Shown piece after piece: positions 19,765 through 40,423 of a stretch of 64,000 bases of DNA. Each line of letters starts with the position of its first letter. Positions within the stretch are counted from its first letter, which is position 1. Both the position numbers and the translations under genes were made by a program. This DNA comes from Brevibacillus laterosporus (GTDB taxonomy: Bacteria; Bacillota; Bacilli; Brevibacillales; Brevibacillaceae): positions 3,404,001-3,468,000 of the forward strand of contig CP033464.1 in the NCBI GenBank assembly GCA_007833815.1, written 5' to 3'. The notes beneath the pieces are model-generated. The model was given only the letters and a program-made list of their open reading frames with translations, had not been told where the DNA came from and ran no database searches.

Positions 19765-19775
19765 CTTATATTGAG
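19765..19775 (+). promoter_or_regulatory. CTTATATTGAG motif, copy 1
   Basis: One of three exact copies of an 11-mer found only in gaps of the tail block (others at 27415 and 32744). A TTAACA lies 16 bases upstream of its TATATT, so it could be a -10 region. It lies 37 bp before a small gene. Confidence 0.4.
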
Positions 19776-19811
19776 TGAGAAACCATCCTTGAGAGTAGGG
19801 AGATGAGCATA

Positions 19812-20048
19812 ATGTTAGACAACCTGTGTAAACAGATGTATTGCACCTACGGACGAGATACCGATTTCATGGGATTGGCTTTCCGATTCAAAAAAGGTAT
19901 CGCAATCGTGGATATACATATTGATGGTGAATACGAAGATGGATATGTCGTTGAATTTGTTAGCTTTGTAGAACATGAGCCTCCTGTATTTAAAATTGTA
20001 AAAAACAAAGAAGAACTCCATACCCTTATACAGGAATTTGCACTGTAA
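19812..20048 (+). CDS. Small hypothetical protein
   Basis: 78 residues, not recognised. It is acidic, starts M-L-D-N-L-C-K-Q-M-Y and has a central stretch of alternating hydrophobic residues (I-A-I-V-D-I-H-I-D-G), suggesting a small alpha/beta fold. The ATG at 19812 is preferred because GGGAG lies ten bases upstream. The in-frame ATG at 19803 directly touches that site. It is the first plus-strand gene of the tail block and may be regulatory. Confidence 0.55.
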   Translation: MLDNLCKQMYCTYGRDTDFMGLAFRFKKGIAIVDIHIDGEYEDGYVVEFVSFVEHEPPVFKIVKNKEELHTLIQEFAL

Positions 20049-20272
20049 CATTTCGTATCGGAAAATCTTGTTCCTCTCCTTTTATTCTTTATAGTAGTGG
20101 TTCTACCATTATGGAAGGTTGCGAAACTTTTTCATTCTCGTCAGGAAAAATTATATACAAGAAGATATCTGAGAAGGGGAGGATACGAGTCTAGCTGATT
20201 GCTGAGAATACATCCAGAATAAAGAGAACAAATGAATGTGAAGAGTGTAAGTGGGAGCGGGTGGGATAACAA

Positions 20273-20533
20273 ATGCAAAGATTCGAAAAATGTGTGCAAT
20301 GTGGCTTTCGCTATGTAACGGAAAAGGCAAGACAAAACTATATAGCTGAAGGTTTGCCTGGTAATCCACAAATATGTTTGCATTGCCTAAGTGTGAGAAC
20401 AGGAAAAGTAATGAATGTGCACGGTAATCTAGTATTTCCAGATGAAGTTGAGACTTCTAATAAACAGAAGTTTATTCCTAAAACAGTGATTGAGGGTTGT
20501 CGACCTTGCATGAAGAAACGAGGGCTTCTCTAA
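20273..20533 (+). CDS. Small zinc-ribbon-like protein
   Basis: 86 residues with C-V-Q-C near the N-terminus, C-L-H-C in the middle and C-R-P-C near the C-terminus, which gives enough ligands for one zinc ribbon and possibly more. The rest is basic. I cannot assign a family. Its place before the tail-tube gene suggests a phage regulator or adaptor. The start ATG has a weak upstream site. Confidence 0.6.
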   Translation: MQRFEKCVQCGFRYVTEKARQNYIAEGLPGNPQICLHCLSVRTGKVMNVHGNLVFPDEVETSNKQKFIPKTVIEGCRPCMKKRGLL

Positions 20534-20621
20534 AAGCTCCTTATACAGTAGGGATATTTAGGAAGGTTAGAAGTGACATACAAAAAGTAATGTCTCCAAT
20601 ACGCGAGGTTAGTTAAAGGCT

Positions 20622-20648
20622 GTATCACTTTTACTTATATTGTGATAC
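20622..20648 (+). promoter_or_regulatory. Dyad with CTTATATT upstream of tail tube gene
   Basis: GTATCAC at 20622-20628 and GTGATAC at 20642-20648 flank TTTTACTTATATT. The loop contains CTTATATTGTG (20634-20644), a near copy of the tail-block 11-mer. It is a candidate promoter-operator for the tail operon that starts at 20762. Confidence 0.4.
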
Positions 20649-20761
20649 GAACCATGAAACATGATGATGGAATAAGTAGTTTCATTGTGTCTAGTATTTA
20701 TACGCATTTATCACAAACTACTTTTACCATTGATTGAGAAAATTAGAGGAGGGTTTTATAC

Positions 20762-21820
20762 ATGAGTACAACAAAGAACAAGAAAATGCTAATTAAGGGT
20801 GCAGGGAAGTTTATGGCAAAAATTCCTAATTGTGATGAATTAATCACGATTGGTACCTTGAACAACATGCGCTTAGATGTTCAACTTGACATGCAAGATA
20901 TTGAAGGTGGAGATTCCAGCGTTGCCTTAGATACGCTTTTACGGAAAAAAACCATTGATATTACTGCTGAGGATGCGAAATTTGACTTAAACCTTGTCCG
21001 ATTAGCCCTTGGTTCCAAATTACGTGAAGGTGTAAGTGGTGCCACATATAAAATGCAGACGGAGAACGTGCAGGTCCCTTCATCTTCACCTTATCAAGCA
21101 ACACTTTCTGAAGCGTCTGTAGCGAGTCCAGCTCATAAAGCGTTTGAAGGCACCATTAATGGAGCTGATGTAACATCAAGCGTGACACTTGCTGGGAAAG
21201 CAATCACTTTTGATGACTCTCTTGCTGGTAAAACTGTTGTTATTGTGTATCCAGTTGCTTTGAGTGGCGTAACGTACGATGAGGATGGCTTTGTGTGGGT
21301 ACTAGAAGAGAAGCATACTGTAAAAGAGAAAGCAGGTAAATTCGAAGTAGACCTTGTTTTCGGAGCTGCTCTTCATAAGGACGCACAAATTTCTGTTCGT
21401 ACATTGAAAGGTAACAAGCTTTTAAAGAAAACGACAAGTTCCACCCCGAAAGAGGAACAGTACGCTGTGAATGGTAGCACATTATCCTTCCATTCAGCCC
21501 TAAAAGATGTAGATATTTACGTAAACTACAAACGTAACGAAGTAGTAGACGTATTGGATATTACTACGAAGGATATGCCTCTTACTGTTCATGTCATTCA
21601 TGATGGCCAATTTGAACAAAAAGATGGTTCTATCCAAGGTTATCAAACCGAATTGTACTTGTGTCGCGTAAAATCAAACTTTACGTTGGATGCACAACGT
21701 CAACAAGCTTCTACTCATAGCGTAACGCTGACTGTTATTGATCCTGACCGTGTAGACGGAAAAATCGGAACAATCAAACGATATGAAGCGCAGGGTGCTA
21801 ATTCCAAGAATCTTTGCTAG
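20762..21820 (+). CDS. Phage major tail (tube) protein
   Basis: 352 residues. The start M-S-T-T-K-N-K-K-M-L-I-K-G-A-G and the following D-V-Q-L-D-M-Q-D-I-E-G-G-D-S-S segment fit phage tail-tube proteins. The middle and end are beta-rich with repeated short T-V and V-T strands, and the last part resembles an Ig-like or tube-domain closure. In siphophages this protein polymerises into the tail tube around the tape measure. Position supports this: it is just upstream of the frameshifted chaperone pair and the tape-measure gene. No sheath gene is present, so the tail should be non-contractile. The call rests on position and weak motifs. Confidence 0.7.
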   Translation: MSTTKNKKMLIKGAGKFMAKIPNCDELITIGTLNNMRLDVQLDMQDIEGGDSSVALDTLLRKKTIDITAEDAKFDLNLVRLALGSKLREGVSGATYKMQTENVQVPSSSPYQATLSEASVASPAHKAFEGTINGADVTSSVTLAGKAITFDDSLAGKTVVIVYPVALSGVTYDEDGFVWVLEEKHTVKEKAGKFEVDLVFGAALHKDAQISVRTLKGNKLLKKTTSSTPKEEQYAVNGSTLSFHSALKDVDIYVNYKRNEVVDVLDITTKDMPLTVHVIHDGQFEQKDGSIQGYQTELYLCRVKSNFTLDAQRQQASTHSVTLTVIDPDRVDGKIGTIKRYEAQGANSKNLC

Positions 21821-21897: not shown

Positions 21898-22467
21898 GTG
21901 GCTATCTGGTTACCCCCGCCATTTAGCTTACCTATGTCTTTACATCAAATGGGGGAAATCACAAGTGGGGGTGTCACTGTTTTGAGTGATCGAAATTTTG
22001 TAATTCCAAAAAATAATGAAATGACTTCTGAGCAAGCTATTCAGAAAGAGGTCGCCAGTCAAGTTGAAGAGCAACAAGCAATTCCAGCAACCGAGGAAGC
22101 GACAGCCAAGGTACTAAGTGAAGAAGAGGCGTCCATTCGCGAAAAGGTGTTTTTTGAAGAAGATGAGAAGGTTCGATTGCGTGATGGCAAGACGTATTCT
22201 ATCCCTCCTTTGGGTATCAAGGATGCCAGAAAGCTGATGAAATTGTTAAATACCATTGATTCAGGGATCATTATCGCCAATTTAATTCCAGAATCAGAAG
22301 TAGATGATGATCGTTACGAGGAATTATTGAAGGTGCTTTTGATGGCGTTTAAGCCTTACTACAAGCATGTAGACACGGAGTACTTGGCTGACTATGTGGA
22401 TCTGGAGACTGGCAAGAAGATCATTGATGCCATGATTGGATTAAACGGGTTAAAAAAGTCAATGTAA
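21898..22467 (+). CDS. Tail assembly chaperone, short (unshifted) form
   Basis: About 189 residues as drawn from the GTG. The ribosome binding site is poor and a later start is possible, for example the TTG near 21981 behind GTGGGGGTG. The product is acidic with a long K/E-rich N-terminal half and a helical C-terminal half (K-L-M-K-L-L-N-T-I-D and L-L-K-V-L-L-M-A-F-K). It lies between tail tube and tape measure, the fixed place of lambda gpG-type chaperones. It ends nine bases after a slippery heptamer, and a second frame continues it. Confidence 0.75.
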   Translation: MAIWLPPPFSLPMSLHQMGEITSGGVTVLSDRNFVIPKNNEMTSEQAIQKEVASQVEEQQAIPATEEATAKVLSEEEASIREKVFFEEDEKVRLRDGKTYSIPPLGIKDARKLMKLLNTIDSGIIIANLIPESEVDDDRYEELLKVLLMAFKPYYKHVDTEYLADYVDLETGKKIIDAMIGLNGLKKSM

Positions 22468-22802
22468 CCACTGAGGAAGAAGATGAGGAGTACAAAAAAC
22501 GGGCTCCCATCAATTGGGCTGATATTTTCTTTAAGCTGGCCCATTATTGTCATCTGGATAAATTTCAGGTTTGGCAGCTGACATTGCCTCAGTTGGGTTT
22601 TTATTTAGAGCAATGCAATGAACATATCGAATTCACTGTGAAGGTTTCAACCATGTCCTTTGGAAGCTTGTTTGGAGGAGGTTTATCTTCAAAGGATCAA
22701 TCACAAGGATTGACCGAGGCTAGACAAGATGGGACTTACACGGATGGCTATAAAGTAGCAGATGAAACAGATATGGAATGGCTTGCCAACGTTTTGGGTT
22801 AA
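21898..22802 (+). CDS. Tail assembly chaperone, frameshifted (GT-like) form
   Basis: A -1 shift at 22452-22458 fuses the short chaperone to about 115 further residues: V-N-V-T-T-E-E-E-D-E-E, then W-A-D-I-F-F-K-L-A-H-Y and a helical tail ending M-E-W-L-A-N-V-L-G. In lambda and many siphophages the minor G-T fusion, together with free G, coats the tape measure and recruits tube protein. Total length is about 301 residues. The second part has no ribosome binding site or good start of its own, which supports expression by frameshift. Confidence 0.8.
22452..22458 (+). promoter_or_regulatory. Programmed -1 ribosomal frameshift site (A AAA AAG)
   Basis: The zero-frame codons TTA-AAA-AAG form the heptamer A-AAA-AAG, the same efficient -1 site as in dnaX. 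A -1 slip enters the frame that stays open to 22802. The stop of the unshifted frame follows nine bases later. Confidence 0.85.
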
Positions 22803-22867
22803 TACATACTCCTGCTCTGCTCCTGAATGGAGGGGCAGGAGTTTTATTTTATAAGGCAGGTGAGACT

Positions 22868-25800
22868 ATGAATAATGAGATGAGAGCGACATTTGCTTCT
22901 GAGTTACGCAATTCTATCCAAAGTTCCATTCAATACGGTAAGGAGCTCGAGCGACTTGACTCACGATTTGGCAAATTGGTTACTCGTATAGGTACTGTAA
23001 ACAATTCCATACGTTCCTTTCACAGAGAAGTAAACAGAGACAAGGGGACAAAGTTACACCAACAGACGAGCGAAGAACGTAATTCTATGCCCAACAAGGG
23101 GATTGTCCAGAGGGCTGGAACACTTTCTCAGCGAATGCCAGAATTGCAATCTCAAATGCAAAGAGTTTCTGATGAGGTTCAAGGGAAGGTAAAACGAAGC
23201 ATTCATCTTGAATTGCATGAGTTAGTAGAAAGCATTGAAGCTTTAGATATTAAATCGAGCCCTAAGCTAAAAAAACACCTGATTAGTCAAATGAACCTGA
23301 TTAATAAAAAGTTGATACAAAAGATTCGGGAACAATTCGATCTTCAGGTGGAACAGTTAATGCAAGAATTTGGACAAAGTTCTGGGCGGTTACAAAATCT
23401 TAATCGCGCTTATCCACCATTTCTCTCTTCTTCTGGCACCTTACGTACAGACAATGGTATAGCAGGTGGAAGTACAACAGCGTCAGGTAAAGCTACTGGT
23501 TCTACAGCTCCAGAGGAGACGGCTCTTGCTGCTAATGTGGTGACGGCAATCAATGCTCAGAACGCTGCTATTACTTCTATTCGTAACAACTTAGCAGTAA
23601 GTGGAGCAACTGATCCTTCCTCGCTCCTTTATCAAGCGATTGATATTTTTAACAACATTCAGCAGGAAGAGATCAAGCTGTATCGCAGTCTTTCATTAAA
23701 GAAAGACTTTCGTGTTGATCCCAATAACAGTCAGAGTCAGGTTGATCAGGGCAAGCTATCGAGTGCTATTGAAGGTATTAAAGGATTCGTTCGGGAACAA
23801 ACCTCTTTTTACGGCCTTCCTTACAAGCAGCTTTTTGAAGTAGCTTCCATTGGCGGAAAAACACTTGATGACCCTGCCGAAATCAAAAAGCTGGTTCAAC
23901 AAGTAGCGCAAATCAAGACAATAGACCCGTCTTCTGATATGAAAACGATTGCCAACGGGTTGCTTGAAACCAAAGACAAGCTTGGGCTTTCCATGCAAGA
24001 GATTGATGAAAAAATCGTTCGGTCCATTGCTGCCGTAACCCAAATAGGTGCGGCAAACAGTGAACAAATTCTTCAGATGATCAATAAATCAGGAAATACT
24101 TTTAAGTCTAAAACAGATGCAGACATGCTCGTAGGACTCTCTGCTGCATCGATTCAAACAAATACAAGTCTAGGAACCTACGATAAAATTCTGAAACGTT
24201 TTGAAAGTGACAATGGAAGAGACAAGGCGAAAGAATTAGGCATCAAAACAGAAGAGATTGATCCAGCAACGGGTGGAACCAAAGAGCGAAGTGCAGAGTC
24301 GATGTATAAGGATTTTGCGAATATGCTCTCTTCCTTGCATAATCGTACTGAACGAGACAAGCTGATCGATTCTTTTTTTGGGACAAAAGAAGGCGGAAAA
24401 GGTGCCGCAAGTCAAGAAGCCCTTCTAACGCAGAAGCATGCGGAATTTATTGGTGAAATGCAAGGCTTCGATCAGTCCAGATATGAAGAAATGCTTCAAC
24501 AGTCCTTGCAAAATCCTTCCGTCAATATGAATCGAGTTAATTCAAGTCTGGAAGTAGCTTTGGATGCGCTGGTTACGGAACTGACTCCTTCGATCAATAA
24601 AGTTTCCTATATGCTCATGAATATGGCGGATGGGGTTTCAAAAAATATTCATCTCTTTGTAAGTTTGGCAGATGTACTATCTAACGCATTGCTGGGCCTC
24701 ATGCTAATGAAGGGGATCAAGTGGAGCTGGCAAAAATCAGGAATACCTCAGAACTGGGAAAAGCAAAAAGAGCTTTCTTCTTATGTCAATCGTTTTAAAG
24801 GAATGGAGTCAGACCCAGCCTTAACCAGCCTTATTGGAAATGGTCTCAAAGGAAATAATCGAAAACTGTATCAACAAGCAACCGACTTACAAGGAAATCA
24901 AACCTTTTTAAAACGAATGCAAGAATTTAACTCTATGAGTAAAGCTCAGCATGAGCATTTTAAAAAGTATGTAGGCCACTCAGGACAGAAGGTAAATGAT
25001 CTTCCTACTTTCTTTACTATGATGGAGGAATCAAAAAGCTGGAAAGAAAAAGGGAAGGTTTCCTATCAGGAGAGATTTAATCGAAACCAAACCTATGCAA
25101 ATCGCCTGAAAACGAATCCTGAGTCCAATAAGCTCATTCATACTCCGCTTTTGAATACCTTGTTAACAAATACAAGGGACCGATCTACATTTGTGCATAA
25201 AATGGGTTCAAATTCAGGGTATAAAAGTGCCGCAACACGTCTGGGAACGATGAGTCAAACTGAATTCGATGGTTTTGAAAAACATCTTCAGGAATTGAGA
25301 AGAAATGGTTCTCCAGCAATTAATAGCATTACTCGTCTGAATCAAGCTTTGGACAGTTATCAAAATACGTTAAGGCAAAGCGCAACGGTTACACGCAACT
25401 CTTCTGCTACCTACCTGGAATTGTCTCATGCGATGCGTAGCATTAATGAGCAAGCTGGTAGTAACAAAATGGGTGACAAGTTTAAAAATTTTCTGCAGGA
25501 CGCATCTGGTCTAGCTAAGGGAGCAGGAGGGGGCGTCGGTGGTTTAGCCTCAAAACTAGTAAAGGGATTGGCAGGAGCCGTTGTTGGTTTAATTGCAGAA
25601 ACTGTCAAGATGGGTGTCCAGTTAGTAGCCCAACTGGCTTTGGCACAAGCTGCCAAGACAGTTGCCATCAACTTGACGACCACGGAAGACCAGCGTCAAC
25701 TGATGGGTGCTGAAAAACAAGAGAAAGACATAGTAGAGGTGGCCAATCATTTGCGCGTGCTAGGAGATAGCGGTTTTTTGAGCTTTCCTGACTATTTAAA

Positions 25801-27388
25801 TAAAATAAACCTGGGTTATGGAGACCTCATGAACTTCGTAAGTCGCAATTCTGGAGGAAAGGATACACATCTGGGATCAGGGCAAGCAGAAGAAATGATG
25901 GATGGGGTTCGTGAAATGTACAATAAGCGGGGAGCGAACCTCAAAAATAAAGTACAACTCGCTAACTATCTAAGAGATAATGATATATCTAAAGAGGAAG
26001 CTGTTAACGCCTGGGCTGAAGAGAGTGGAAGAAAAAAGGAAATTCAAGAATTAAAAAAACAATCCTTTTCGAAACAATATCAACGGACTCAGCTTGAAAA
26101 TAAAGAAAAAGCTTTGCTCGAACAAGAAGCCAAGAAAAGTTACGATGAAAAGTATAAAAATGGTCTCTTACCAAACATTACGGCAGATGAAGGAAAGGCT
26201 AGGCTAAAAGAAGGCTTCACAGAGGTTCAGAAAAAAAACGAAAAAGAAAACTTACAAGCGGAGCTAGACGGTCTAGCTACCGATAGTCAAGCTTTCATTG
26301 CTATGAAAGAGGGACAGATCAAGAGATTAGAAGAAGTTTTAAATCGAGAACTGGAGATTGTAGATAAATACATCGAGGAATACGCGAAGCAGTTGCAAAG
26401 CATACAAGATAAAAATTCTGATCAATACAAAGACAAAGAAAAACAATACAAAGAATCAATTGATACCCGTAAAAGTGTACAAGAAGACGGACAACAGCAG
26501 ATAAATAAAGACAAACATGCCGAGCAACAAAGACAATTCCAAAGCAAGTTTTCCTCTGTACAACAAGGGTTACAACTGGCAGAGCAAGTCGCACAAGCAA
26601 AAGAATTGATGGTTGGAATAAACATGGACAGGCAATCGAAAGCTTATATTGGCGCATTACAAAAAATTACAGATTCAAAAATTAGCGACTTACGAATGAG
26701 ACTTGCCGACATGAAAGCGATTGAAGCAAAGGGTGATCAAAGAAAAGAGATAGAGTCTGCCATACGTGATGTAGAAAATAGCATTTATAATGAGCAACTT
26801 CGTTATAAGGATCTATCATTATCCAAAATTGGGATTGAGCGTATTGACTTGGAAGAAAAGGCGTCAGACCGTGAAAACAATTATCTGGCTGAAAAGGTAA
26901 GACGAGGGGGCGCATCAGATGATTCCCCTGGAATGAGGGCGCTACGCATTTCTTCTGCCAAGCAGGAGGTCCAGGATATTAATAAGCTCATCGGGCAATA
27001 CAAGAAGGATATGGTTGATAAGAGTCCAGAAGAACAGAAGAAGTATACGCAAGAAATTCGGGACCTAACGAAACAATCTCTACAGGCTCAGCTAGGCATT
27101 CTTGAGGAAGTGAAATCCCCTGTAGGTACCTTTAATTTGCCAGATGGCGTAACAGCGATGAGCCGTTATGAATATTTGACTCGTGGAAATACTCACCAGT
27201 CCTTCACAGTTGGTTCAGGTGATGTAACGGTAAATATTGCATTGCCTAATGTTACCAGTAGTACTACCGATGCACAATTGTCTGCTATTGGCAATGGAAT
27301 TGGCCGTGGTTTATTTACGGGTCGAGTAGGTGGCATGCGAGATCAGATGCTCATGGGGACTGCTGCTTATCGTTCAAACTATCCGTAA
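22868..27388 (+). CDS. Tape measure protein
   Basis: 1506 residues from the ATG behind GGCAGGTGAGACT. The protein is mostly alpha-helical with long coiled coils (about 1-200 and 1060-1400). Around residues 880-940 there is a glycine- and alanine-rich hydrophobic segment (G-A-G-G-G-V-G-G-L-A, then V-K-G-L-A-G-A-V-V-G-L-I-A), the usual membrane-like part of tape measures. It sets tail length and is ejected. By the usual 0.15 nm per residue, the tail would be a little over 200 nm. A terminator hairpin precedes the next gene. Confidence 0.9.
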   Translation: MNNEMRATFASELRNSIQSSIQYGKELERLDSRFGKLVTRIGTVNNSIRSFHREVNRDKGTKLHQQTSEERNSMPNKGIVQRAGTLSQRMPELQSQMQRVSDEVQGKVKRSIHLELHELVESIEALDIKSSPKLKKHLISQMNLINKKLIQKIREQFDLQVEQLMQEFGQSSGRLQNLNRAYPPFLSSSGTLRTDNGIAGGSTTASGKATGSTAPEETALAANVVTAINAQNAAITSIRNNLAVSGATDPSSLLYQAIDIFNNIQQEEIKLYRSLSLKKDFRVDPNNSQSQVDQGKLSSAIEGIKGFVREQTSFYGLPYKQLFEVASIGGKTLDDPAEIKKLVQQVAQIKTIDPSSDMKTIANGLLETKDKLGLSMQEIDEKIVRSIAAVTQIGAANSEQILQMINKSGNTFKSKTDADMLVGLSAASIQTNTSLGTYDKILKRFESDNGRDKAKELGIKTEEIDPATGGTKERSAESMYKDFANMLSSLHNRTERDKLIDSFFGTKEGGKGAASQEALLTQKHAEFIGEMQGFDQSRYEEMLQQSLQNPSVNMNRVNSSLEVALDALVTELTPSINKVSYMLMNMADGVSKNIHLFVSLADVLSNALLGLMLMKGIKWSWQKSGIPQNWEKQKELSSYVNRFKGMESDPALTSLIGNGLKGNNRKLYQQATDLQGNQTFLKRMQEFNSMSKAQHEHFKKYVGHSGQKVNDLPTFFTMMEESKSWKEKGKVSYQERFNRNQTYANRLKTNPESNKLIHTPLLNTLLTNTRDRSTFVHKMGSNSGYKSAATRLGTMSQTEFDGFEKHLQELRRNGSPAINSITRLNQALDSYQNTLRQSATVTRNSSATYLELSHAMRSINEQAGSNKMGDKFKNFLQDASGLAKGAGGGVGGLASKLVKGLAGAVVGLIAETVKMGVQLVAQLALAQAAKTVAINLTTTEDQRQLMGAEKQEKDIVEVANHLRVLGDSGFLSFPDYLNKINLGYGDLMNFVSRNSGGKDTHLGSGQAEEMMDGVREMYNKRGANLKNKVQLANYLRDNDISKEEAVNAWAEESGRKKEIQELKKQSFSKQYQRTQLENKEKALLEQEAKKSYDEKYKNGLLPNITADEGKARLKEGFTEVQKKNEKENLQAELDGLATDSQAFIAMKEGQIKRLEEVLNRELEIVDKYIEEYAKQLQSIQDKNSDQYKDKEKQYKESIDTRKSVQEDGQQQINKDKHAEQQRQFQSKFSSVQQGLQLAEQVAQAKELMVGINMDRQSKAYIGALQKITDSKISDLRMRLADMKAIEAKGDQRKEIESAIRDVENSIYNEQLRYKDLSLSKIGIERIDLEEKASDRENNYLAEKVRRGGASDDSPGMRALRISSAKQEVQDINKLIGQYKKDMVDKSPEEQKKYTQEIRDLTKQSLQAQLGILEEVKSPVGTFNLPDGVTAMSRYEYLTRGNTHQSFTVGSGDVTVNIALPNVTSSTTDAQLSAIGNGIGRGLFTGRVGGMRDQMLMGTAAYRSNYP

Positions 27389-27407
27389 TTTTTGTTATGA
27401 AAATGAC

Positions 27408-27440
27408 GCCCTACCTTATATTGAGGTAGGGTATTTCTTT
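27408..27440 (+). terminator. Terminator-like hairpin with CTTATATTGAG in its loop region
   Basis: CCCTACCT / AGGTAGGG with seven loop bases, then TATTTCTTTT. The 11-mer CTTATATTGAG (27415-27425) spans the loop. It may act both as terminator and as part of a promoter for the distal tail genes (TTATGA lies 16 bases upstream of TATATT). Confidence 0.65.
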
Positions 27441-32697: not shown

Positions 32698-32745
32698 AAG
32701 CAAGGAACATTACGTATCAGACGATAACTGTTCCTTGCTTTTTCT
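32698..32745 (+). terminator. Strong rho-independent terminator
   Basis: AAGCAAGGAACA / TGTTCCTTGCTT, then TTTTC. It ends the tail operon after the lysin gene. A third CTTATATTGAG copy starts at its 3' edge (32744-32754). Confidence 0.85.
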
Positions 32746-32778
32746 TATATTGAGATAGAAGCTGAGGTGTTTATTATT

Positions 32779-33195
32779 ATGGTCAATCGTAACTTTACAA
32801 ATGCTAATGAGGTTTTCCCCATCATAGACCTGATTAGAAGAGAGATGAAAAAGGTCGGTTTGTACGGAGGGGGAGACGATCTTACCATTGTCCCGAACCG
32901 GAAAGAGCCTGAGGTTGTGAGTGTGGAAGTCTTACGAGAAATGACATCACATCCGTCTCTGGTTACTACCGTCATATATACGTATGACAATGGTGGGATC
33001 GAAAAGCTTAGTCTTGAACGAGACGATGGTTTAATGGTCACTGGTTTCTTAATCGAGATAGAACAGTCCTCCATCGTTAATGAACAGCTGGAGGAAGAAA
33101 CAGACCTTCTTTCGTTCAAAGCGATACAAGGCAGCATTATACGAGAAAATGGTCTGTTTAAGAGTCTTCAGCTTGACTATGTAAGGGCGGTGTAG
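32779..33195 (+). CDS. Hypothetical tail-block protein
   Basis: 138 residues from the ATG at 32779, eleven bases after GAGG. The in-frame GTG at 32767 lies in that site. Not recognised. It has a helical start (I-I-D-L-I-R-R-E-M-K-K-V-G-L) and then beta strands, with a well-conserved-looking T-V-I-Y-T-Y-D-N-G-G-I. It sits between the tail lysin and the lysis cassette, where receptor-binding or fibre-chaperone proteins are often found. Function is open. Confidence 0.65.
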   Translation: MVNRNFTNANEVFPIIDLIRREMKKVGLYGGGDDLTIVPNRKEPEVVSVEVLREMTSHPSLVTTVIYTYDNGGIEKLSLERDDGLMVTGFLIEIEQSSIVNEQLEEETDLLSFKAIQGSIIRENGLFKSLQLDYVRAV

Positions 33196-33631
33196 ACGTT
33201 GTCGAGTGGCGCTAATTTTGCAAGTTATGCCTGTCAAGCAAACCCTAAAAAATGACAGAATGCGACGGAGACAATACAGCAAATAGTCAACTAAATAGTA
33301 TGCTGTTGTTAAAATCGTATCCGAAATTCCCTGCTATCGAGCTTGATTCGAGGCAAGCTGGGTGATCGTTCTACCCCCGACTGATATGCCTTTTTTATGA
33401 AAGAGTGGCAACCCTTGTCCTTACCGGCAGGGGTTAATTTTTTACTTATTTTACTTATATTAAAAAATATTCAAAAAAACATAATGTGCATTTAGTTAAA
33501 AATCGTTTCATTAAGCACCTATAAAGGTTTGAAGACGATATGACTATCCTATCTTTGCTATAAAGAAAAGGGGTGGATCACAGCCTTGTACATTCCGTTA
33601 TTTTACAGACAAAAAAGAAGGTGAAAAAATT
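33196..33631 (+). other. Gap with short frames, a structured segment and a terminator
   Basis: No convincing gene in 436 bp. An 18-codon frame opens with TTG at 33199 behind GGGCGGTGT, and a 21-codon ATG frame starts near 33300. A segment at 33350-33395 can fold (AGGCA...TGCCT around GGGT...ACCC) and ends in T6. AACCCTTG/CAGGGGTT with a T-tract at 33409-33442 is a terminator. CTTATATTAAA lies at 33454. GCACCT-N15-CGAT at 33515-33539 is a weak relative of the sigma-block promoter motif. Confidence 0.4.
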
Positions 33632-33955
33632 GTGGATGCTAATGTAATGATGGCAATCATTGGGGGGGCAGTGTCCCTTGGTACAGGTTTTATCGGTTAT
33701 ATATCAGGCCGAAATAATAATCAAAAGGATGTTAGCATTTCAGATCGTCAATTACTGTCTCAAGCTGAACAGGCATTTCGAGCTGAATTGCGGGAGGAGC
33801 TGCGAATTTACAAAGAAGAAATCAAGGCATTAAAACAAGAGATTGAGGTATTACGGCAAGAAAACTTCAAACTTTTAACAGAGAACAGATCACTAAATAC
33901 AAAAGTAGAATCATTAATGTTGCGCTTAAATGGAGATCAAAACAATAGAAAATAG
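33632..33955 (+). CDS. Small membrane-anchored coiled-coil protein (lysis cassette)
   Basis: 107 residues. An N-terminal hydrophobic helix (M-A-I-I-G-G-A-V-S-L-G-T-G-F-I-G-Y) is followed by a coiled coil rich in E, L and K (about 45-105). This layout resembles XhlA/hemolysin-type phage proteins that assist holins, although those usually have the helix at the C-terminus. The GTG start lies behind GAAGGTGAAAAAATT. It is 20 bp upstream of the amidase. Confidence 0.65.
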   Translation: MDANVMMAIIGGAVSLGTGFIGYISGRNNNQKDVSISDRQLLSQAEQAFRAELREELRIYKEEIKALKQEIEVLRQENFKLLTENRSLNTKVESLMLRLNGDQNNRK

Positions 33956-33974: not shown

Positions 33975-34802
33975 ATGTTTGTCATGAAATATCCAATTCA
34001 AACAAAATACCTGACTCCAAGAACAAAAAGACGTTCGGGGATTCCTATGAACCGTGTAGGTTTTATCGTGGCCCATGATACGGGAAACCCTGGATCAACA
34101 GCGCTTGCCAATATTAGTTATTACCAAAATACTTGCAACAGCAGCAGTGTATCTGCCCACACATTTATCGATGACACAAGCGTCTGTGAATGTATCCCAG
34201 CTACTACTGGCAAGCCTGAAAAAGCATGGCATGTTCTGTACGACATACCTTTGGATAATCAATGGTTTGGTGGGGATGCCAATGATATTGCAATCGGGGT
34301 AGAGCTTTGTTACGGAGAGTATAGAAAAAACGGGATCATTAGACAAAAAGTAAATGATTCTGAGGCATATAAACGCTATGTATGGTACATCGCATACCTT
34401 TGCTATTTATATCATTTGTTACCGGAAAAGCATATTGTTGGTCATTGTGATCTTGATCCACAACGTAAATTAGATCCCACCAAAAATGCCTTTAAGAGAA
34501 TGAACATCACGTGGAAACAATTTATTCAGGATGTGAATAAAGAATATCAAGCATGTACAGAAAAATCCAATTCTTCAGTCCCTGTACATGACGAATCAAT
34601 AGTGGGAGATGAAAAAGAATTGAAACTAGCTGAGTGGCAATTCGATATGCTGGTCCAAGCGTTGGAAGACCTTACACAAAGAGGTTATTTAACTGATAAA
34701 GCTTGGGTTGAAAAAGCTAAAACCAAAACGTTAACACAGAGTGAACTTAGTTTTATTATGACTATCGTGTTACAACGCAATCTAAAAGGTGAATCTAAAT
34801 GA
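33975..34802 (+). CDS. N-acetylmuramoyl-L-alanine amidase (endolysin)
   Basis: 275 residues. Residues about 20-190 form an Amidase_2/PGRP-type catalytic domain: F-I-V-A-H-D-T-G-N-P with the zinc His, S-A-H-T-F-I-D-D, W-H-V in the middle, and G-H-C-D-L-D-P-Q-R-K-L-D-P with the second His and Asp. It should cut the bond between muramic acid and L-Ala. The C-terminal 60 residues (E-W-Q-F-D-M-L-V-Q-A-L ... L-T-Q-S-E-L) form a helical module with an SLH-like rhythm, probably for wall binding. The stop overlaps the start of the holin gene (ATGA). Confidence 0.9.
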   Translation: MFVMKYPIQTKYLTPRTKRRSGIPMNRVGFIVAHDTGNPGSTALANISYYQNTCNSSSVSAHTFIDDTSVCECIPATTGKPEKAWHVLYDIPLDNQWFGGDANDIAIGVELCYGEYRKNGIIRQKVNDSEAYKRYVWYIAYLCYLYHLLPEKHIVGHCDLDPQRKLDPTKNAFKRMNITWKQFIQDVNKEYQACTEKSNSSVPVHDESIVGDEKELKLAEWQFDMLVQALEDLTQRGYLTDKAWVEKAKTKTLTQSELSFIMTIVLQRNLKGESK

Positions 34803-35098
34803 CAGAGATTATATTAGAAAAAGCTCAACTGCTCATCCTTTTGGCCTTCTTAACAGAATCACTCACAGAAATTCTAAAAGGATTATTTTCACAGTGGATC
34901 AGAGATCGAATGACTTATTTTTTGTCCATCTTCGTGGGGATTATCCTATGTTATGCTTTTGAAATGAATCTATTTGGCATGCAACATATCTGGCAGCATG
35001 TCTCTATCATTTCAGCTGGATTAATCGTGAGCCGAGGAGCAAATTATGTAAATAGCTTTATCAAGAGCTTAAGAATTTTACAAAAAGGTAGTAAATAA
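34799..35098 (+). CDS. Holin-like membrane protein
   Basis: 99 residues with two to three hydrophobic segments (about 10-28, 38-56, 66-84) and a basic tail ending K-S-L-R-I-L-Q-K-G-S-K. It overlaps the amidase gene by four bases. Size, topology and linkage to an endolysin fit a phage holin that opens the membrane for endolysin release. No specific family was recognised. Confidence 0.7.
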   Translation: MTEIILEKAQLLILLAFLTESLTEILKGLFSQWIRDRMTYFLSIFVGIILCYAFEMNLFGMQHIWQHVSIISAGLIVSRGANYVNSFIKSLRILQKGSK

Positions 35099-35221: not shown

Positions 35222-35252
35222 TTTTTTGCAGGGAAATAAGTGGAAAAACCAT

Positions 35253-35278: not shown

Positions 35279-35478
35279 TACTATAGTATTTGCTACTCAA
35301 AGACTATTACCTTAGGTGTAAAACTTTAGTTGATATCCGTATTTTTAGGTATTTTATCTGGGTTTTCTCTCTAGATGAGATAGTTAGTAAGTCCTTTTTT
35401 AGGGTTTTTGCCTGATTTGACAAGCCAGTAGGGGGGATATGCGTAAAACATAATAACTGAAAGGAGAGATAAAACTGA

Positions 35479-35544: not shown

Positions 35545-35603
35545 GCAATTATCAAATTTGATTATCTCTCATAATATTTACAGTCGTTAGGAGGAATTAT
35601 TAT

Positions 35604-36137
35604 ATGAAACAAGCAAAAGGTACTACAGAAATTCTGGATATTAGAATTTTGAATCCAATATTTGATTTTGTGCTGTCCGGGGTGCACGTAGCTGATAGAG
35701 AGGATGTAAAGCATGATTCCATTGTCCGGATACTAACTGCAATGAACAAAGGGGCCATCAAAAAGGATATCTTTACTTTTTCTCATACGGTAATTAGGAG
35801 AACCGTCATGGACTATTATCGAAAAAAAAGACGAATGATCATTCAAAAAAGTACGATGGTTCATTTCTGCGATGGAGCCGACGATGAAAAGGGATCTACT
35901 ACTGATCATTTCGTTGGCGTAGATTATGAAGTGGGTTATGGATTGGCTGATTTGCGCAATGATTATTTGTTTCATAAAGATCTATTTACAAATCAGGAAC
36001 AGAAAATCATTAGCTATATGCTGTTTACGGAAGATGGAATAGATATGAAGCCGACACAAATTTCCAATCAACTAGGTTTAAATAAGTCCCACGCTTCACG
36101 AGCTATGAACAAACTTAAGCACGTATGCTTGGTATAA
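35604..36137 (+). CDS. Small sigma-70-family factor (ECF size, phage-linked)
   Basis: 177 residues. Residues about 30-80 resemble sigma region 2: D-R-E-D-V-K-H-D-S-I-V-R-I-L, then F-S-H-T-V-I-R-R-T-V-M-D-Y-Y-R-K-K-R-R. The C-terminus holds a region 4 helix-turn-helix: T-Q-I-S-N-Q-L-G-L-N-K-S-H-A-S-R-A-M-N-K-L. There is no region 3, so it is of ECF size, comparable to Xpf-like or TcdR/UviA-like regulators of phage-like elements and toxins. ATG follows TTAGGAGGAATTATTAT. It is the best candidate to read the GCAnCT-N16-CGAC motifs that surround it, one of which lies upstream of its own gene. Confidence 0.75.
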   Translation: MKQAKGTTEILDIRILNPIFDFVLSGVHVADREDVKHDSIVRILTAMNKGAIKKDIFTFSHTVIRRTVMDYYRKKRRMIIQKSTMVHFCDGADDEKGSTTDHFVGVDYEVGYGLADLRNDYLFHKDLFTNQEQKIISYMLFTEDGIDMKPTQISNQLGLNKSHASRAMNKLKHVCLV

Positions 36138-36602: not shown

Positions 36603-37025
36603 ATGTTAGCTAGATACGTAGTAGGTGGAAGATTAGATCCCCCATATTATCCTACAAAGACCAGAGCTCATTTTATCGGGCGAGAAATCTTTGTAAAGGG
36701 CATGAGAAGCTCAGGTACTAAGAGAGTAATTACTGATACTTTTCATCTATCACATGATGTAGAGTTTTATGCTATATCCATAAGATCTGATATTATCACC
36801 CCTTCTGATTATTGGAATCTTCTCATTGATAACCAAATGATTGCAAAAAATGTATATTGTAAAAGTTTAGAAGAAGGGCTCTATTTTCAGGTTGCTCATC
36901 CTATTAAAGCAGGGACCCAATGTAAATTAGAGTTTTATACGGAAGTAGGTGACAGAAAGCAAGTTGAGGTATTGTTTCATTTTCTAAGTGATCCTGAAGT
37001 TGAACCAATTATGATCGGAGCCTGA
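36603..37025 (+). CDS. Hypothetical protein
   Basis: 140 residues, not recognised. Predicted all-beta: many alternating strands (F-Y-A-I-S-I-R-S-D-I, L-L-I-D-N-Q-M-I, C-K-L-E-F-Y-T-E-V-G) as in a small beta sandwich. The ATG follows AAGGAGAGTTAGCTGA. It lies under promoter motif 2 and could be a tail decoration or fibre-type protein expressed separately from the main tail operon. Confidence 0.6.
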   Translation: MLARYVVGGRLDPPYYPTKTRAHFIGREIFVKGMRSSGTKRVITDTFHLSHDVEFYAISIRSDIITPSDYWNLLIDNQMIAKNVYCKSLEEGLYFQVAHPIKAGTQCKLEFYTEVGDRKQVEVLFHFLSDPEVEPIMIGA

Positions 37026-37203
37026 TAATTCAAATGATCTGGGTTCACTACCTCCGAATAACGATTCCCCTTTCAATACCCGATTACGATACTTGTAAAA
37101 ATTCAATTGTATGGAAGCTCTATGCTACAGCAGTGGAAGCTGAGAAATGGAGCAAGCCATCACTTGTAAAAAAGCGAAATAAAAGGAAGCAGGTTGTGTT
37201 GTA

Positions 37204-37551
37204 ATGATTGGTTATTTAAACAAATGTCCGCACTGCAAGAAAGATGCATCCTTTGTACTGGAAGAATTGGAATGTGATAAATCCTTGGTGGCCTGGTGCC
37301 GCTCGTGCGGTAACTATGTCAATCAGACCTTTACGTTAGATACTTTTCGTAAGTGGTGGGAGAGGTACCAGATGGGAGAAGAGAAGATTGCGCCTCCTAT
37401 CAGAAAAGAAATGTTAGAAAAGTTAAAAATGTTAGAAGAAGCTATTGCGCTTGATCCGTCTTGTTATTTGAATAGAGTAGAAATTCATTTGAAAGACTTT
37501 ACTGACTACGTATATAACGATGATGGGGATCAGATCGGTGAAAGGAAGTAA
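37204..37551 (+). CDS. Small zinc-ribbon protein
   Basis: 115 residues. The N-terminus has C-P-H-C and, 23 residues later, C-R-S-C-G, a four-Cys zinc ribbon. A helical region with K-W-W-E-R-Y and K-E-M-L-E-K-L-K-M-L-E-E-A follows. Function unknown, probably nucleic-acid or protein binding. AAGGAAGCAGG precedes the start. Confidence 0.6.
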   Translation: MIGYLNKCPHCKKDASFVLEELECDKSLVAWCRSCGNYVNQTFTLDTFRKWWERYQMGEEKIAPPIRKEMLEKLKMLEEAIALDPSCYLNRVEIHLKDFTDYVYNDDGDQIGERK

Positions 37552-37614
37552 AATTCATTTTGGATAATAGATAGGAAAGTAGTAAGGCTAATCTATTAGA
37601 TATGGAGTGAGAAT

Positions 37615-37947
37615 ATGACAAAACTTGATTTACATACCATTATTTCTGACCAGCAAATTTTTGATACAAAAGCAACGATAGACCTTCAGTTGTTAGTTAA
37701 GATTTTAAGTGGGTATGCAACCATGCAAGAAGAAACCAAGAAACTGATGAAAAAAAATAAAGCATTATCGGTTAACAATGAACATCTTAGTAATGAATTA
37801 CAAGACCTATACGAACAGATAAAACATGCTGAGATAGCTGCTTATCATAAAAATCAATCTGGCAAGGATAGTCGAAGCAAAGATCATAATGAATTGTGGA
37901 TGAAACATGATCAGTTTTTCTGGGGCTTTTTTGACAAAAGAGAATAA
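37615..37947 (+). CDS. Coiled-coil hypothetical protein
   Basis: 110 residues. Residues about 30-80 form a coiled coil (E-E-T-K-K-L-M-K-K-N-K-A-L then L-S-N-E-L-Q-D-L-Y-E-Q). The C-terminus is aromatic: D-Q-F-F-W-G-F-F-D-K-R-E. Not recognised. ATG after TGGAGTGAGAAT. Confidence 0.5.
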   Translation: MTKLDLHTIISDQQIFDTKATIDLQLLVKILSGYATMQEETKKLMKKNKALSVNNEHLSNELQDLYEQIKHAEIAAYHKNQSGKDSRSKDHNELWMKHDQFFWGFFDKRE

Positions 37948-37969
37948 ATAATAAAGAATCTGGAACACC

Positions 37970-38281
37970 ATGACTGGAGGGAAGAAGAAAGAAGTGTATA
38001 CATTAGGCAAACTTATCGAGCAGGTTGATGAAATTAGTAGCGTTATCAATCAAATAAACAGAGCAATGAGACATACGTCATCTGCTTCTGTTGAAGTGCT
38101 CCGTCGGAATAAAGAACAATTGGAAGAGATTGTGGAATATGTGATGGAACAAGATATTTCATCCCCTCTCGATCTGGAAGGGCTACTGATGAGTCATAAA
38201 AAATGCTTGCGAGAATGTATGGAATCCTCGTATAGCAACAAGAGGCCTTCTACAGAAAGGAGCAGGGATTATACGCCATGA
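37970..38281 (+). CDS. Helical hypothetical protein
   Basis: 103 residues, helical and charged, with two conserved-looking Cys near the C-terminus (K-K-C-L-R-E-C-M-E). It shares the K-K-C or A-A-C ... M-R-E-C pattern with the next protein and overlaps it by four bases (ATGA), so the two probably form a pair. The start at 37970 is uncertain. Confidence 0.45.
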   Translation: MTGGKKKEVYTLGKLIEQVDEISSVINQINRAMRHTSSASVEVLRRNKEQLEEIVEYVMEQDISSPLDLEGLLMSHKKCLRECMESSYSNKRPSTERSRDYTP

Positions 38282-38523
38282 GAATGAAGTTTAAGGATCT
38301 TTATGAGGCTGTAAAAGAGACAAATAAAGCTGTTATGGATATAGATTTAGACATAGAAAATATTGGTTGTGGTGCAGCCAAATGCTTGGTTACTTATGAA
38401 CAAATGCGGTTAAAAGAGAGTTATATGGAGCTCTACAATGCAGATGTGTCTATGAAGTCAGTAGATATAGATGAAATTCAGAGACAGATTGCGGCTTGTA
38501 TGCGAGAGTGCGTTCGTTTTTAA
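38278..38523 (+). CDS. Helical hypothetical protein
   Basis: 81 residues, helical. The C-terminus I-Q-R-Q-I-A-A-C-M-R-E-C-V-R-F resembles the end of the preceding product, suggesting related small proteins. It starts in the ATGA overlap behind AGAAAGGAGCAGG. Unknown function. Confidence 0.5.
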   Translation: MRMKFKDLYEAVKETNKAVMDIDLDIENIGCGAAKCLVTYEQMRLKESYMELYNADVSMKSVDIDEIQRQIAACMRECVRF

Positions 38524-38550
38524 GGCGGGGAGTATTCCCGTCTTTTTTTT
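38524..38550 (+). terminator. Rho-independent terminator
   Basis: GGCGGGGA / TTCCCGTC with G-U pairs, then T8, directly after the stop at 38523. Confidence 0.75.
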
Positions 38551-38603
38551 ATCGGATTATCTTCAAAATGCGCAAATAAAGTTTTTAATTAATAGTAGGA
38601 TTC

Positions 38604-38629
38604 GCAACTATTCCGAAGGGTAACCCGAC
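38604..38629 (+). promoter_or_regulatory. Sigma-block promoter motif 3 (GCAACT-N16-CGAC)
   Basis: GCAACT at 38604-38609 and CGAC at 38626-38629, followed by AACTATAGTA. A start of transcription a few bases later leaves the transglycosylase ATG at 38666 with its ribosome binding site but would exclude the ATG at 38645. Confidence 0.6.
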
Positions 38630-38665
38630 AACTATAGTACGATAATGCACGTAAAGGATGGTTGC

Positions 38666-39241
38666 ATGATAATTGTAATGAAATCCATGATGGTTACTTT
38701 TCTGATAATAGCCGAGTTTACTACTTATTACCCAAATTTTGAATGGGATAATACCCCAGTAAAACAAGGAAATACTCCTTCGATTGCTGTAACAACGTCA
38801 ACTTCTACACAGCAAAAGCAAGTTGAACAGATAATCATACAGCATATGCTCTCTAGAAATATTGCAACTACAGACGCGATCAATATATCCAACCATATTC
38901 TTACTTTTTCTGGAAAATACAACGTAGATCCTTATATTATATTGGCCATGATCGAGTTGGAAAGTCATTATCAACCAAAGGCGATTGGCAAACATGGGGA
39001 TACCGGACTTATGCAAATCTTACCCGCCACGCAAAGATATATGGGCATTACAGGAGATCTTACAAATCCAGAAGTAAATATTCATGTTGGATGTAAGTAC
39101 TTGGCTTATACACAAAACAGATTTGGATCAGATTTAGGAATAGTTGCCTACAATCAGGGAGAGGGAAATATCGTACGTGGCACATACAAAACAAACTATC
39201 TGACAAAAGTAAAAAAGATATGGTTAACCATTAAAAAATAG
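38666..39241 (+). CDS. Lytic transglycosylase (SLT type)
   Basis: 191 residues from the ATG behind AAAGGATGGTTGC. An N-terminal hydrophobic signal (about 1-22) is followed by a linker rich in S, T and Q. The SLT domain (about 80-185) shows I-L-A-M-I-E-L-E-S-H-Y with the catalytic Glu, G-D-T-G-L-M-Q-I-L-P, and A-Y-N-Q-G. It cleaves glycan strands with formation of 1,6-anhydro-muramic acid. Motif 3 lies 37 bp upstream. It may help particle release or remodel the wall during assembly, in addition to the amidase and the tail lysin. Confidence 0.85.
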   Translation: MIIVMKSMMVTFLIIAEFTTYYPNFEWDNTPVKQGNTPSIAVTTSTSTQQKQVEQIIIQHMLSRNIATTDAINISNHILTFSGKYNVDPYIILAMIELESHYQPKAIGKHGDTGLMQILPATQRYMGITGDLTNPEVNIHVGCKYLAYTQNRFGSDLGIVAYNQGEGNIVRGTYKTNYLTKVKKIWLTIKK

Positions 39242-39276
39242 ACCACTAGGATTAGGAAAATAATGAGGATCATTCC

Positions 39277-39304
39277 TATGTATATGTATATGTATATGTA
39301 TATC
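39277..39304. repeat. TATATG hexanucleotide repeat next to a promoter
   Basis: About four and a half units of TATATG end two bases before the GCATCT box of motif 4. Confidence 0.8.
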
Positions 39305-39305
39305 T

Positions 39306-39331
39306 GCATCTTTTCGATAGGATAGCCCGAC
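39306..39331 (+). promoter_or_regulatory. Sigma-block promoter motif 4 (GCATCT-N16-CGAC)
   Basis: GCATCT at 39306-39311 and CGAC at 39328-39331, followed by TATTATAG. It is 40 bp upstream of the larger sigma-factor gene. Confidence 0.55.
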
Positions 39332-39370
39332 TATTATAGGGAGCAGGAACGAAAGCATAAGACTAGGAGT

Positions 39371-40423
39371 GTGAAAGAAATCTTGTTAAGTCAACGATAC
39401 CTCCGTTTACGGAAAGAAAACATAAAAGATATGCACAATACAGATCTTATCAGGGAATGTAAAGAAGATAATGATCTGTTGGGAGAGTTTTTGGAAGAAA
39501 ATAAGGAGTTTCTTTTCTCGATTATCAAACATTATAAAGGTAGCATTGAAGAATTGTGTTTTAAGTTTAGAGTAACAGAAGAAGAGCTACTTCAGCATGC
39601 TTACATTGGTGTTTTAAATGCCCTACAGGAGTTTGATTTTCATAGAGGAATCAAGTTTACAACTTTTGTGGTCAGACCGATCATTTGGGAGATTAATCAA
39701 TTACTTTACAATGATTCACGATTTGTTAGATTAAGCAGGGGAGCAGTTGAGCAAATAAAACGAATGATAGCAATTGAGGAAAAGCTAGGATATAGACCCA
39801 GCGAAGAAGAAATGGCAAAACTTCTGGATATCCCTGTTGAAAGGTATAAGGAGATCGCACGATTCAGTGATGAAATTGAGCATTATCATGCCTATGAGAA
39901 CTTCGATGTTATAGATCAAAATTGCCATAATATTGAGGAACTTGTGGTGGATAAAGTTTATGTAGAACATTTACTTGGAAGTCCAATATGTAACGATTTT
40001 GAGAAAACGGTTATGAAGCTTATCATGGAAGGGATCAATAATACTCAAATTGCTGAACGTTTACAGGTATATCCTATGACCATTAATAGGGCAATAATGC
40101 GTATCAGAAATAAAGTTCTGAATTTTCAATCATATAATAAAAACATGCAAAACAATGTAACCTCCAAATATGATCGAGAAATCAAAATTATTGAAGAGGA
40201 GAGTAGATTGCGTAACAAACTTATGTGCGTCAACGAAATTTCAGAACTCCTTGAAGGATACGGCTTTGACAGACAGGCATATTCTACTCGAATTTTATAT
40301 TACATTCGACAAAAGGTAAGCAAGACATGGCCAGATCAGACGGATGAGGCTAGAAAAGCAAGCAAGAAGCTTGATTCAGTTAGAAGTAAAAAGCGAATTC
40401 AGGCAAAACAAGCTGCCACGTAA
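39371..40423 (+). CDS. Alternative sigma-70-family factor
   Basis: 350 residues. Region 2 is clear (E-F-D-F-H-R-G-I-K-F-T-T-F-V-V-R-P-I-I-W-E-I-N-Q), region 3 follows (V-R-L-S-R-G-A-V ... P-S-E-E-E-M-A-K-L-L-D-I), and region 4 has N-N-T-Q-I-A-E-R-L-Q-V-Y-P-M-T-I-N-R-A. A basic C-terminal extension of about 90 residues (to K-R-I-Q-A-K-Q-A-A) is unusual. The start is uncertain: GTG at 39371 nearly touches AGGAG, and TTG at 39383 is 13 bases away. It is probably controlled by motif 4 and could be the second step of a two-sigma cascade. Confidence 0.8.
   Translation: MKEILLSQRYLRLRKENIKDMHNTDLIRECKEDNDLLGEFLEENKEFLFSIIKHYKGSIEELCFKFRVTEEELLQHAYIGVLNALQEFDFHRGIKFTTFVVRPIIWEINQLLYNDSRFVRLSRGAVEQIKRMIAIEEKLGYRPSEEEMAKLLDIPVERYKEIARFSDEIEHYHAYENFDVIDQNCHNIEELVVDKVYVEHLLGSPICNDFEKTVMKLIMEGINNTQIAERLQVYPMTINRAIMRIRNKVLNFQSYNKNMQNNVTSKYDREIKIIEEESRLRNKLMCVNEISELLEGYGFDRQAYSTRILYYIRQKVSKTWPDQTDEARKASKKLDSVRSKKRIQAKQAAT

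Follow-up and report, generated by a model that had tools for sequence, protein, structure and literature searches.

A headless siphovirus tail locus in Brevibacillus laterosporus: a likely F-type tailocin with a distant fibre cassette

Organization of the tail locus

The window analyzed here is the whole 64,000-nucleotide stretch of Brevibacillus laterosporus DNA at G000:C4:3404001-3468000 (genome size, 5.76 Mb); coordinates below are those of the window unless marked C4. Between positions 19803 and 40423 it carries an ordered set of siphovirus tail, lysis and sigma factor genes (hereafter, the block), recognized from open reading frames (ORFs), Pfam domains, PHROGs families and matches to phage Jenst. 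The order is tail tube, chaperones, tape measure, two distal tail proteins, a hub with M23 and 3D domains, an amidase, a holin-like gene, a sigma factor, an SLT transglycosylase and a second sigma factor, and the ORFs lie where an earlier note on this DNA had described them. In chromosomal order the block genes correspond to JENST_8, 17, 32, 33, 34, 35, 36, 37, 38, 39, 54, 56, 57, 140, 116, 111, 83, 82, 77, 74 and 70/71, and collinearity with Jenst holds through JENST_57. Twenty block proteins were scanned against Pfam and 20 against PHROGs; Pfam returned SLH, M23, 3D, Amidase_2, SLT and sigma domains, while PHROGs returned one tape measure family and several full-length families without assigned function, in proteins that also match Jenst. 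Sheath families were found in neither set of 20.

All block genes are on the plus strand. The first two are homologs of JENST_8 (19803..20048; 54% identity) and JENST_17 (20273..20533; 60-62% identity), the latter a small protein with CxxC pairs (identified by eye) and the final gene ahead of the missing head module. The tail tube follows at 20762..21820 (JENST_32 homolog, 78% identity; PHROGs virion structural protein), its role assigned from position. The first tail assembly chaperone (21898..22467; JENST_33) has a canonical A_AAA_AAG slippery site 16 bases before its frame ends, and the second chaperone frame (22584..22802; JENST_34) is open in the -1 frame from that site for 116 amino acids (aa). 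The site was present in all 29 loci read (30 were given; L071 stands outside the count), which bears out the earlier description of the chaperones as frameshifted. The tape measure ORF (22778..27388; 1,536 aa; PHROGs tail length tape measure; 38% identity to JENST_35) probably starts at the ATG at 22868, judging from a comparison of N termini.

Two distal tail proteins come next, one with a C-terminal SLH domain (27515..28132; JENST_36, 72% identity; Pfam SLH, 3e-6) and one matching JENST_37 (28135..29184; 60% identity). The C-terminal end of the second resembles the SLH region of the first by eye, with no Pfam match there. The idea that the SLH domain was gained upon domestication was rejected: by eye, all 21 of 21 homologs align over this region, those of headed phages among them (the Pfam scan covered the window protein). 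The tail hub (29194..32649; JENST_38, 65% identity over its full length) carries M23 peptidase and 3D domains by Pfam and is followed by homologs of JENST_39 (32767..33195; 65% identity) and JENST_54 (33632..33955; 62% identity; PHROGs hol-like). The lysis genes are an Amidase_2 endolysin (33975..34802; JENST_56; Pfam, PHROGs and Jenst matches) and a holin-like membrane protein (34799..35098; JENST_57), the latter called from 53% identity and position, with the Pfam holin model under its cut-off. The endolysin is unlike that of the related genomes G003 and G005, where matches span 20-24% of the protein; this lysis gene may have been exchanged.

Of the two sigma factor genes, the first (35604..36137; JENST_140, 56% identity) has a sigma70-ECF model under its cut-off, and the second (39371..40423; JENST_74, 63% identity) has Pfam sigma70 region 3 over the cut-off and region 2 just under it. 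Between them lies the SLT transglycosylase (38645..39241; JENST_77; Pfam and Jenst matches). To the left of the block, a gene on the minus strand, in divergent orientation (18599..19738), encodes HTH_36 and DnaA N-terminal domains with 27% identity to JENST_4; it is a possible regulator of the cluster.

Absence of head and packaging genes

Jenst genes were compared with 384 kb around the window at a cut-off of E ≤ 1e-4, with a second pass at E ≤ 1; terminase and capsid were searched genome-wide, and the remaining head genes in the 384 kb. In Jenst, the interval between genes 17 and 32 spans 11,011 bp and holds the terminase, capsid and neighboring head genes. Here it is 229 bp, and in the relatives G003, G004 and G005 the gene 17-to-tube interval is 264-364 bp. 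No Jenst head gene was matched at E ≤ 1e-4 within the 384 kb; at E ≤ 1 there were three weak, scattered matches, to genes 22, 24 and 31. Jenst terminase and capsid had no match in the whole genomes of G000, G001, G002, G003 and G005. G004 gave one terminase and one capsid match, both in a separate prophage, which served as a positive control for the search. The earlier report that head and packaging genes are missing between 18.3 and 41.4 kb therefore stands, and no Jenst-type terminase or capsid lies outside the window either, anywhere in the 5.76-Mb genome; the same note had named capsid or terminase genes outside the window, in the block's transcription unit, as grounds for refutation. At the left edge, phage-like matches extend farther out than the note had placed them, to the JENST_4-like gene at 18599-19738.

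Jenst polymerase, primase, helicase and XerD had no match in the block, while the DnaA_N/HTH gene persists at 18599; in the 384 kb the only XerD matches were 24% and 37% identical, at 182-185 kb. Two other phage-related loci were seen. The headed Jenst-like prophage at G004:C1:1106626-1166625 (L089, L095 and L096) resides in the same genome as a headless cluster, and a PF03354 terminase-like match with two stops in frame lies about 0.6 Mb away from the window at G000:C4:2792082-2792258 (L001), perhaps a remnant of another prophage.

Conservation of the locus in related genomes

The locus was compared with that of three relatives, G003, G004 and G005, and with G001 and G002, genomes without the tail cluster. 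In all three, an equally headless block with genes in the same order occupies this place on the chromosome, as the earlier note had suggested should be checked. Upstream neighbors at 16150 and 17523 and downstream neighbors at 41862 and 42537 are common to them; the conserved upstream neighbor at 16150-17319 is a flagellin gene in the four genomes compared. The interval from 40700 to 41862 holds additional DNA in the relatives, about 20 kb of it in G003 and G005. An empty site for the whole tail block was not demonstrable, one downstream flank gene being absent from G002 and 33% identical in G001.

Ratios of nonsynonymous to synonymous substitution (dN/dS) are simple Nei-Gojobori values and rough, with some dS near saturation and two G004-branch dS values slightly negative. 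Against G003, G004 and G005, the tube, chaperone, tape measure, both distal proteins and the hub gave 0.015-0.13, the sigma genes 0.03-0.10, the SLT gene 0.21-0.26, the holin 0.11-0.38 and the amidase 0.18-0.35, the last from alignments of just 73 codons (G003) and 51 codons (G005). The gene at 18599..19738 is found in the three relatives at 85-89% identity over 90-92% of its length, with dN/dS of 0.04-0.05. On the G000 branch, values were 0.012-0.127 from tube to hub, 0.218 for the holin and 0.245 for SLT. Synonymous divergence in the block (dS, 0.32-1.89) compares with 0.41-1.85 in seven flanking or downstream chromosomal genes. On these alignments, purifying selection and vertical inheritance look to have kept the block within the B. 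laterosporus group.

A deletion scar in the block and a diverged fibre cassette elsewhere

In G003, G004 and G005, genes 40-52, the tail-tip and receptor-binding cassette, lie between genes 39 and 54. This is not so in G000, where the gene 39-to-54 interval is 33195-33632 and is, on comparison with the relatives, the deletion scar of an in-place fibre cassette. The scar feature (33190..33640; plus strand) consists of the beginning of gene 40, 78 bp that match the relatives' gene 42 region, and the 3' terminus of the final fibre gene together with the gene 54 leader.

A second set of these genes, in JENST_40-52 order and with 14 open frames, was recognized by comparison with Jenst and the relatives about 71 kb downstream of the block and outside the window, at 104449-128095 (C4:3508449-3532095), on the same strand as the block. 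This displaced cassette lies inside an insertion relative to G004, in which the flanks 99000-100122 and 129975-130998 align 227 bp apart, and is neighbored by an S9 peptidase gene on the left and a DDE transposase gene on the right. Every JENST_42 match of G000 falls within it. Its genes are 41-70% identical to genes 40-43, 45, 46, 48 and 49 of G004, whereas those G004 genes are 90-100% identical to G003 and G005, so the displaced cassette stems from another lineage. More variable were gene 44, of which 9% aligned in G000, and genes 50-52. In two displaced fibre genes checked dS was saturated, so that no dN/dS ratio was obtained. As to the source, Jenst and SecTim467 at 69% DNA identity were found among phage records, the best protein identity among 40 genomes searched, its own genome aside, was 69%, and viral contigs, queried with a single protein reaching close relatives only, held no relative. 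The block on its own is thus not a complete system, because the targeting cassette lies about 71 kb away.

A promoter-like motif common to both modules

When the sequence between genes 38 and 39 was aligned with the left border of the displaced cassette, a conserved hairpin emerged, with CTTATAWT after it. Around CTTATATTRA sites there was another box, always at the same distance, giving the motif GWTAW-N16-CTTATAWT. A scan of the entire G000 genome gave six matches to this motif, each on the forward strand and each in one of the two modules: 19744, 27394, 32723 and 33433 belong to the block, 104313 and 116174 to the cassette. The first (19744..19772; plus strand; GTTAA-N16-CTTATATT) lies upstream of 19803, the second (27394..27422; plus strand) upstream of 27515, and the third (32723..32751; plus strand) overlaps the hairpin upstream of 32767, the same element being found upstream of the displaced cassette; the site at 33433 lies within the scar. 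The site at 116174 precedes gene 48, a position that the motif also has in the relatives and in Jenst. Spacings of 12 to 20 other than 16 gave five matches in 384 kb, of which one (spacing 17) was within the modules. Because the same rare promoter-like signal occurs in both, the two modules look like one system.

Across six genomes of the genus, 24 of 37 motif matches fell in tail clusters or the cassette, three of these 24 on the minus strand. A narrow form picked after seeing the data, GTTAW-N16-CTTATATT, had 17 matches in the six-genome list, 16 of them in modules. G001 and G002, which lack the cluster, had six and one broad matches, respectively, and zero narrow ones. In Jenst itself the broad form occurs five times: ahead of genes 23, 39 and 48, in the gap separating genes 52 and 53, and, on the minus strand, in that separating genes 77 and 76. 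A promoter-like repeat, which may or may not be the present motif, has been reported for Jenst along with three sigma genes (PMC4909266). Two of the three (gp74 and gp140) are retained in the block, where the JENST_74 homolog is a candidate reader of GWTAW-N16-CTTATAWT. We infer that one or both block sigma factors read the motif and would co-activate both modules.

A consensus promoter scan of 32600-41500 gave 37 hits versus 34.5 in shuffled sequence and was thus not above background. Exact GAACN4GTTC LexA-type boxes (the exact form was scanned) were confined to two sites, 10622 in the window and 102630 in the 95-135 kb region, with none in the block, so the mitomycin C induction proposed in the earlier note has no direct sequence support.

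Distribution of Jenst-type headless tails

A query with the tube protein returned 16 loci in named genomes, 12 of them titled Paenibacillus and the other four B. laterosporus, Bacillus sp. FJAT-27264, B. chungangensis and B. tequilensis, as well as 26 loci of viral contigs and matches in 13 of 40 genomes of the family. Among 56 tube rows compared (duplicates included), a capsid gene was found in 18 and none in 38, with upstream sequence in these 38 being <1 kb in L100 and L107, about 1 kb in L097 and L121, and about 3 kb in L103 and L106; in the last four, gene 17 is close to the tube. The B. chungangensis locus L071, also one of the 38, is rearranged, with the tube and the chaperone and tape measure matches 8-9 kb apart, and its head status is undecided. 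A second, diverged headless form (L080-L088) was found in eight genomes of genus g2, a second genus of the same family and presumably Brevibacillus in the strict sense (G010, G011, G012, G017, G018, G025, G028 and G029), and in G038 of genus g6; in the eight g2 clusters the SLT and sigma homologs are upstream of the tube.

Headless rows of B. laterosporus, P. oryzae, P. farraposensis and P. terrae showed no head leftovers. Paenibacillus sp. OK003 retains terminase and gene 23 scraps plus connectors, P. tengchongensis retains genes 27, 28, 29 and 31, and the second-genus clusters retain gene 31 alone. The differing leftovers suggest that heads were lost repeatedly. In a tree built from 43 tube rows, five changes of the head label are required (four without L071), at least four being forced by supported branches; the exact number is unsure, given long branches, unresolved forks and tails that may have been exchanged between phages and clusters.

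The tape measure is 1,536 aa here, 1,738 aa in Jenst and 247-286 aa in P. farraposensis, P. maysiensis and two P. terrae (L067, L068, L069 and L074), where both ends are retained and the middle is gone. Tail length runs at about 0.15 nm per tape measure residue, which would give tails of very roughly 230 nm here and 40 nm for the short forms. These estimates are rough because the tails of Jenst and SecTim467 measured 286 and 415 nm, respectively, with genomes about 100% identical outside a 4.1-kb region (PMC4909266). A published table lists Jenst prophages marked "int" in strains Psp, Pkr, Ppe, Pfa, Pte and Pma (PMC12643537); as we read it, "int" stands for intact and Pfa, Pte and Pma for P. 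farraposensis, P. terrae and P. maysiensis. At the tube loci of these three species, neither terminase nor capsid was present in the 9-10 kb ahead of the tube. Assuming that the same regions are meant, some of those reported as intact Jenst prophages in Paenibacillus may be headless tails.

Other features of the window

The right-hand part of the block also holds a virion structural protein gene akin to the JENST_116 N terminus and to JENST_40 (36603..37025; plus strand) and small conserved genes at 37204, 37615, 37970 and 38278 (37204..38523; plus strand), which, 37615 excepted, are homologs of JENST_111, 83 and 82. A thioredoxin-like gene (40344..40700; plus strand; JENST_70/71) marks the right limit of phage-like matches. 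Farther downstream, 47761-61429 holds two large ORFs of 2,134 and 2,415 aa with higher GC content, the first encoding a peptide synthetase with condensation, AMP-binding and PP-binding domains. An Rfam scan of the window returned zero RNA families.

Interpretation and alternative explanations

We read the block as a domesticated headless siphovirus tail of Jenst-like ancestry, most likely an F-type tailocin in two chromosomal modules, with a probability of roughly 0.65. It has the non-contractile tail genes and lysis genes of an F-type tailocin, it has no head or packaging genes and no functional replication or excision module, and its shared locus and low dN/dS indicate long-term maintenance by the host. 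The terminase and capsid of a Jenst-like phage had no match in the genome, and its portal none at E ≤ 1e-4 in the 384 kb. The block departs from the class in that the receptor-binding proteins lie outside the cluster, a variant layout, and from the SOS-induced monocin in having no exact LexA box. At its core, the earlier proposal of an F-type tailocin-like cluster that lacks a head and brings lysis and sigma genes of its own was thus upheld by headless relatives, low dN/dS and the lack of terminase and capsid; it gave way on self-containment and on mitomycin C. A fuller history, for which the odds seem to us about even, is that the host gained a foreign fibre cassette at a distant site and lost the old one, that a private, phage-derived sigma-promoter pair unites both loci in one regulon, and that the locus is a member of a family of Jenst-type headless tails, which emerged repeatedly in Brevibacillus, Paenibacillus and their kin and in some cases have a stub tape measure. 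A trigger yet to be identified would raise the block sigma factors, one or both of which would read the motif, so that both modules would be transcribed together. Tails of about 230 nm would then assemble with the distant fibre proteins, and holin and amidase would lyse the cell and free the particles. These would bind related Gram-positive cells, the M23 peptidase of the hub would help to breach the wall, and the target would be killed.

Several points weigh against the tailocin interpretation. Particle formation, release and killing are what we infer from genes alone, and the fit with this tail of a cassette just 41-70% identical to the relatives' genes 40-49, leaving out gene 44, is putative. 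The tail terminator (JENST_31, our reading of gene 31 from its position) is gone from the block, which leaves tail capping unexplained. Structure models of the tube and of the SLH-bearing distal protein were too poor for a fold search (mean predicted local distance difference test [pLDDT] scores of 55 and 40, respectively). The motif was derived from five of its six sites, the independent evidence being 116174 and the lack of sites elsewhere; a reversed control pattern has eight matches in G000 versus the motif's six, so that locations are unusual and number is not, and across the six genomes the 37 matches compare with 35 for the reversed control. The broad motif was also missing from three of 15 loci (L060-L074) and on the minus strand only in two, and from three g2-genus clusters scanned, though the sigma homolog is present there.

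The main block might instead be an incomplete relic making non-binding tails, and the distant cassette an unrelated leftover of another phage. The in-place scar, missing terminator, diverged cassette and adjoining transposase gene are all as this would predict; low G000-branch dN/dS for tube, hub and sigma (though cassette loss on that branch is undated), 14 open cassette frames, a motif found in both modules and nowhere else in the genome, and the confinement of JENST_42 matches to this single cassette are not, and we consider a relic unlikely. The tail could also be kept for a job other than killing kin, for instance as a delivery particle or as a device acting in lysis or at the cell surface. 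Envelope binding is suggested by the SLH domain of the distal protein and the wall-degrading hub, yet the SLH region is conserved in headed phages too and so is no new feature, and holin and amidase point to lytic release; such a role seems to us quite unlikely. Decay of a prophage free of selection would account for the loss of head genes and terminator. One conserved locus in four species-level genomes, dN/dS far below 1 and a conserved frameshift site make it improbable. Least credible is a satellite, or half of a phage, whose head is supplied by another phage in the cell: headed Jenst-like phages do infect or reside in the same group, whereas G000 has no Jenst-type terminase or capsid and the block no homolog of Jenst XerD, for which matches within the 384 kb (24% and 37% identity) lie solely at 182-185 kb.

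Comparison with known systems

The closest known relatives of the block are the phages Jenst and SecTim467 (Jenstvirus), which have the same tail, lysis and sigma genes, collinear from tube to hub at 38-78% identity, and Jenst has the same promoter-like motif upstream of genes 39 and 48. Unlike the block, the phage has heads and replication genes and infects; here the head and replication modules have been lost and the fibre cassette displaced. A phage-tail particle is also known from the same species group, the PBSX-like particle of B. laterosporus 1821L/1951 (PMC9406221 and PMC11245835). That particle has a contractile sheath (XkdK), whereas no sheath was found in the block, and the accessible parts of both papers mention flexible tails as background only; the word Jenst is absent from PMC9406221. 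Among titles and abstract openings of the literature searched, which lacks many journals, there was no Jenst-type headless tail and no tailocin with a distant fibre locus.

The monocin of Listeria is likewise a chromosomal headless tail module with regulatory and lysis modules and is described as vertically inherited (PMC6872733). As presented there, it is a single 17-gene locus, SOS induced and governed by a CI-like/MpaR switch, in contrast to two loci, sigma factors of the system's own and a block that has no exact LexA-type box. The rhizoviticin of Allorhizobium vitis is a flexible headless tail of about 164 nm for which antagonism has been shown (PMC10811719); its Gram-negative host, chimeric single locus and different phage ancestry set it apart, by description and not by sequence. 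Its authors call F-type tailocins rare and name the F-pyocin and monocin as other examples (PMC10811719). To these the present locus would add a Jenst-derived kind in several Gram-positive genera, with headed relatives and graded head-gene leftovers for comparison, a natural case of a tail physically separate from its specificity genes, and a defined promoter-like motif with which the regulon can be put to the test.

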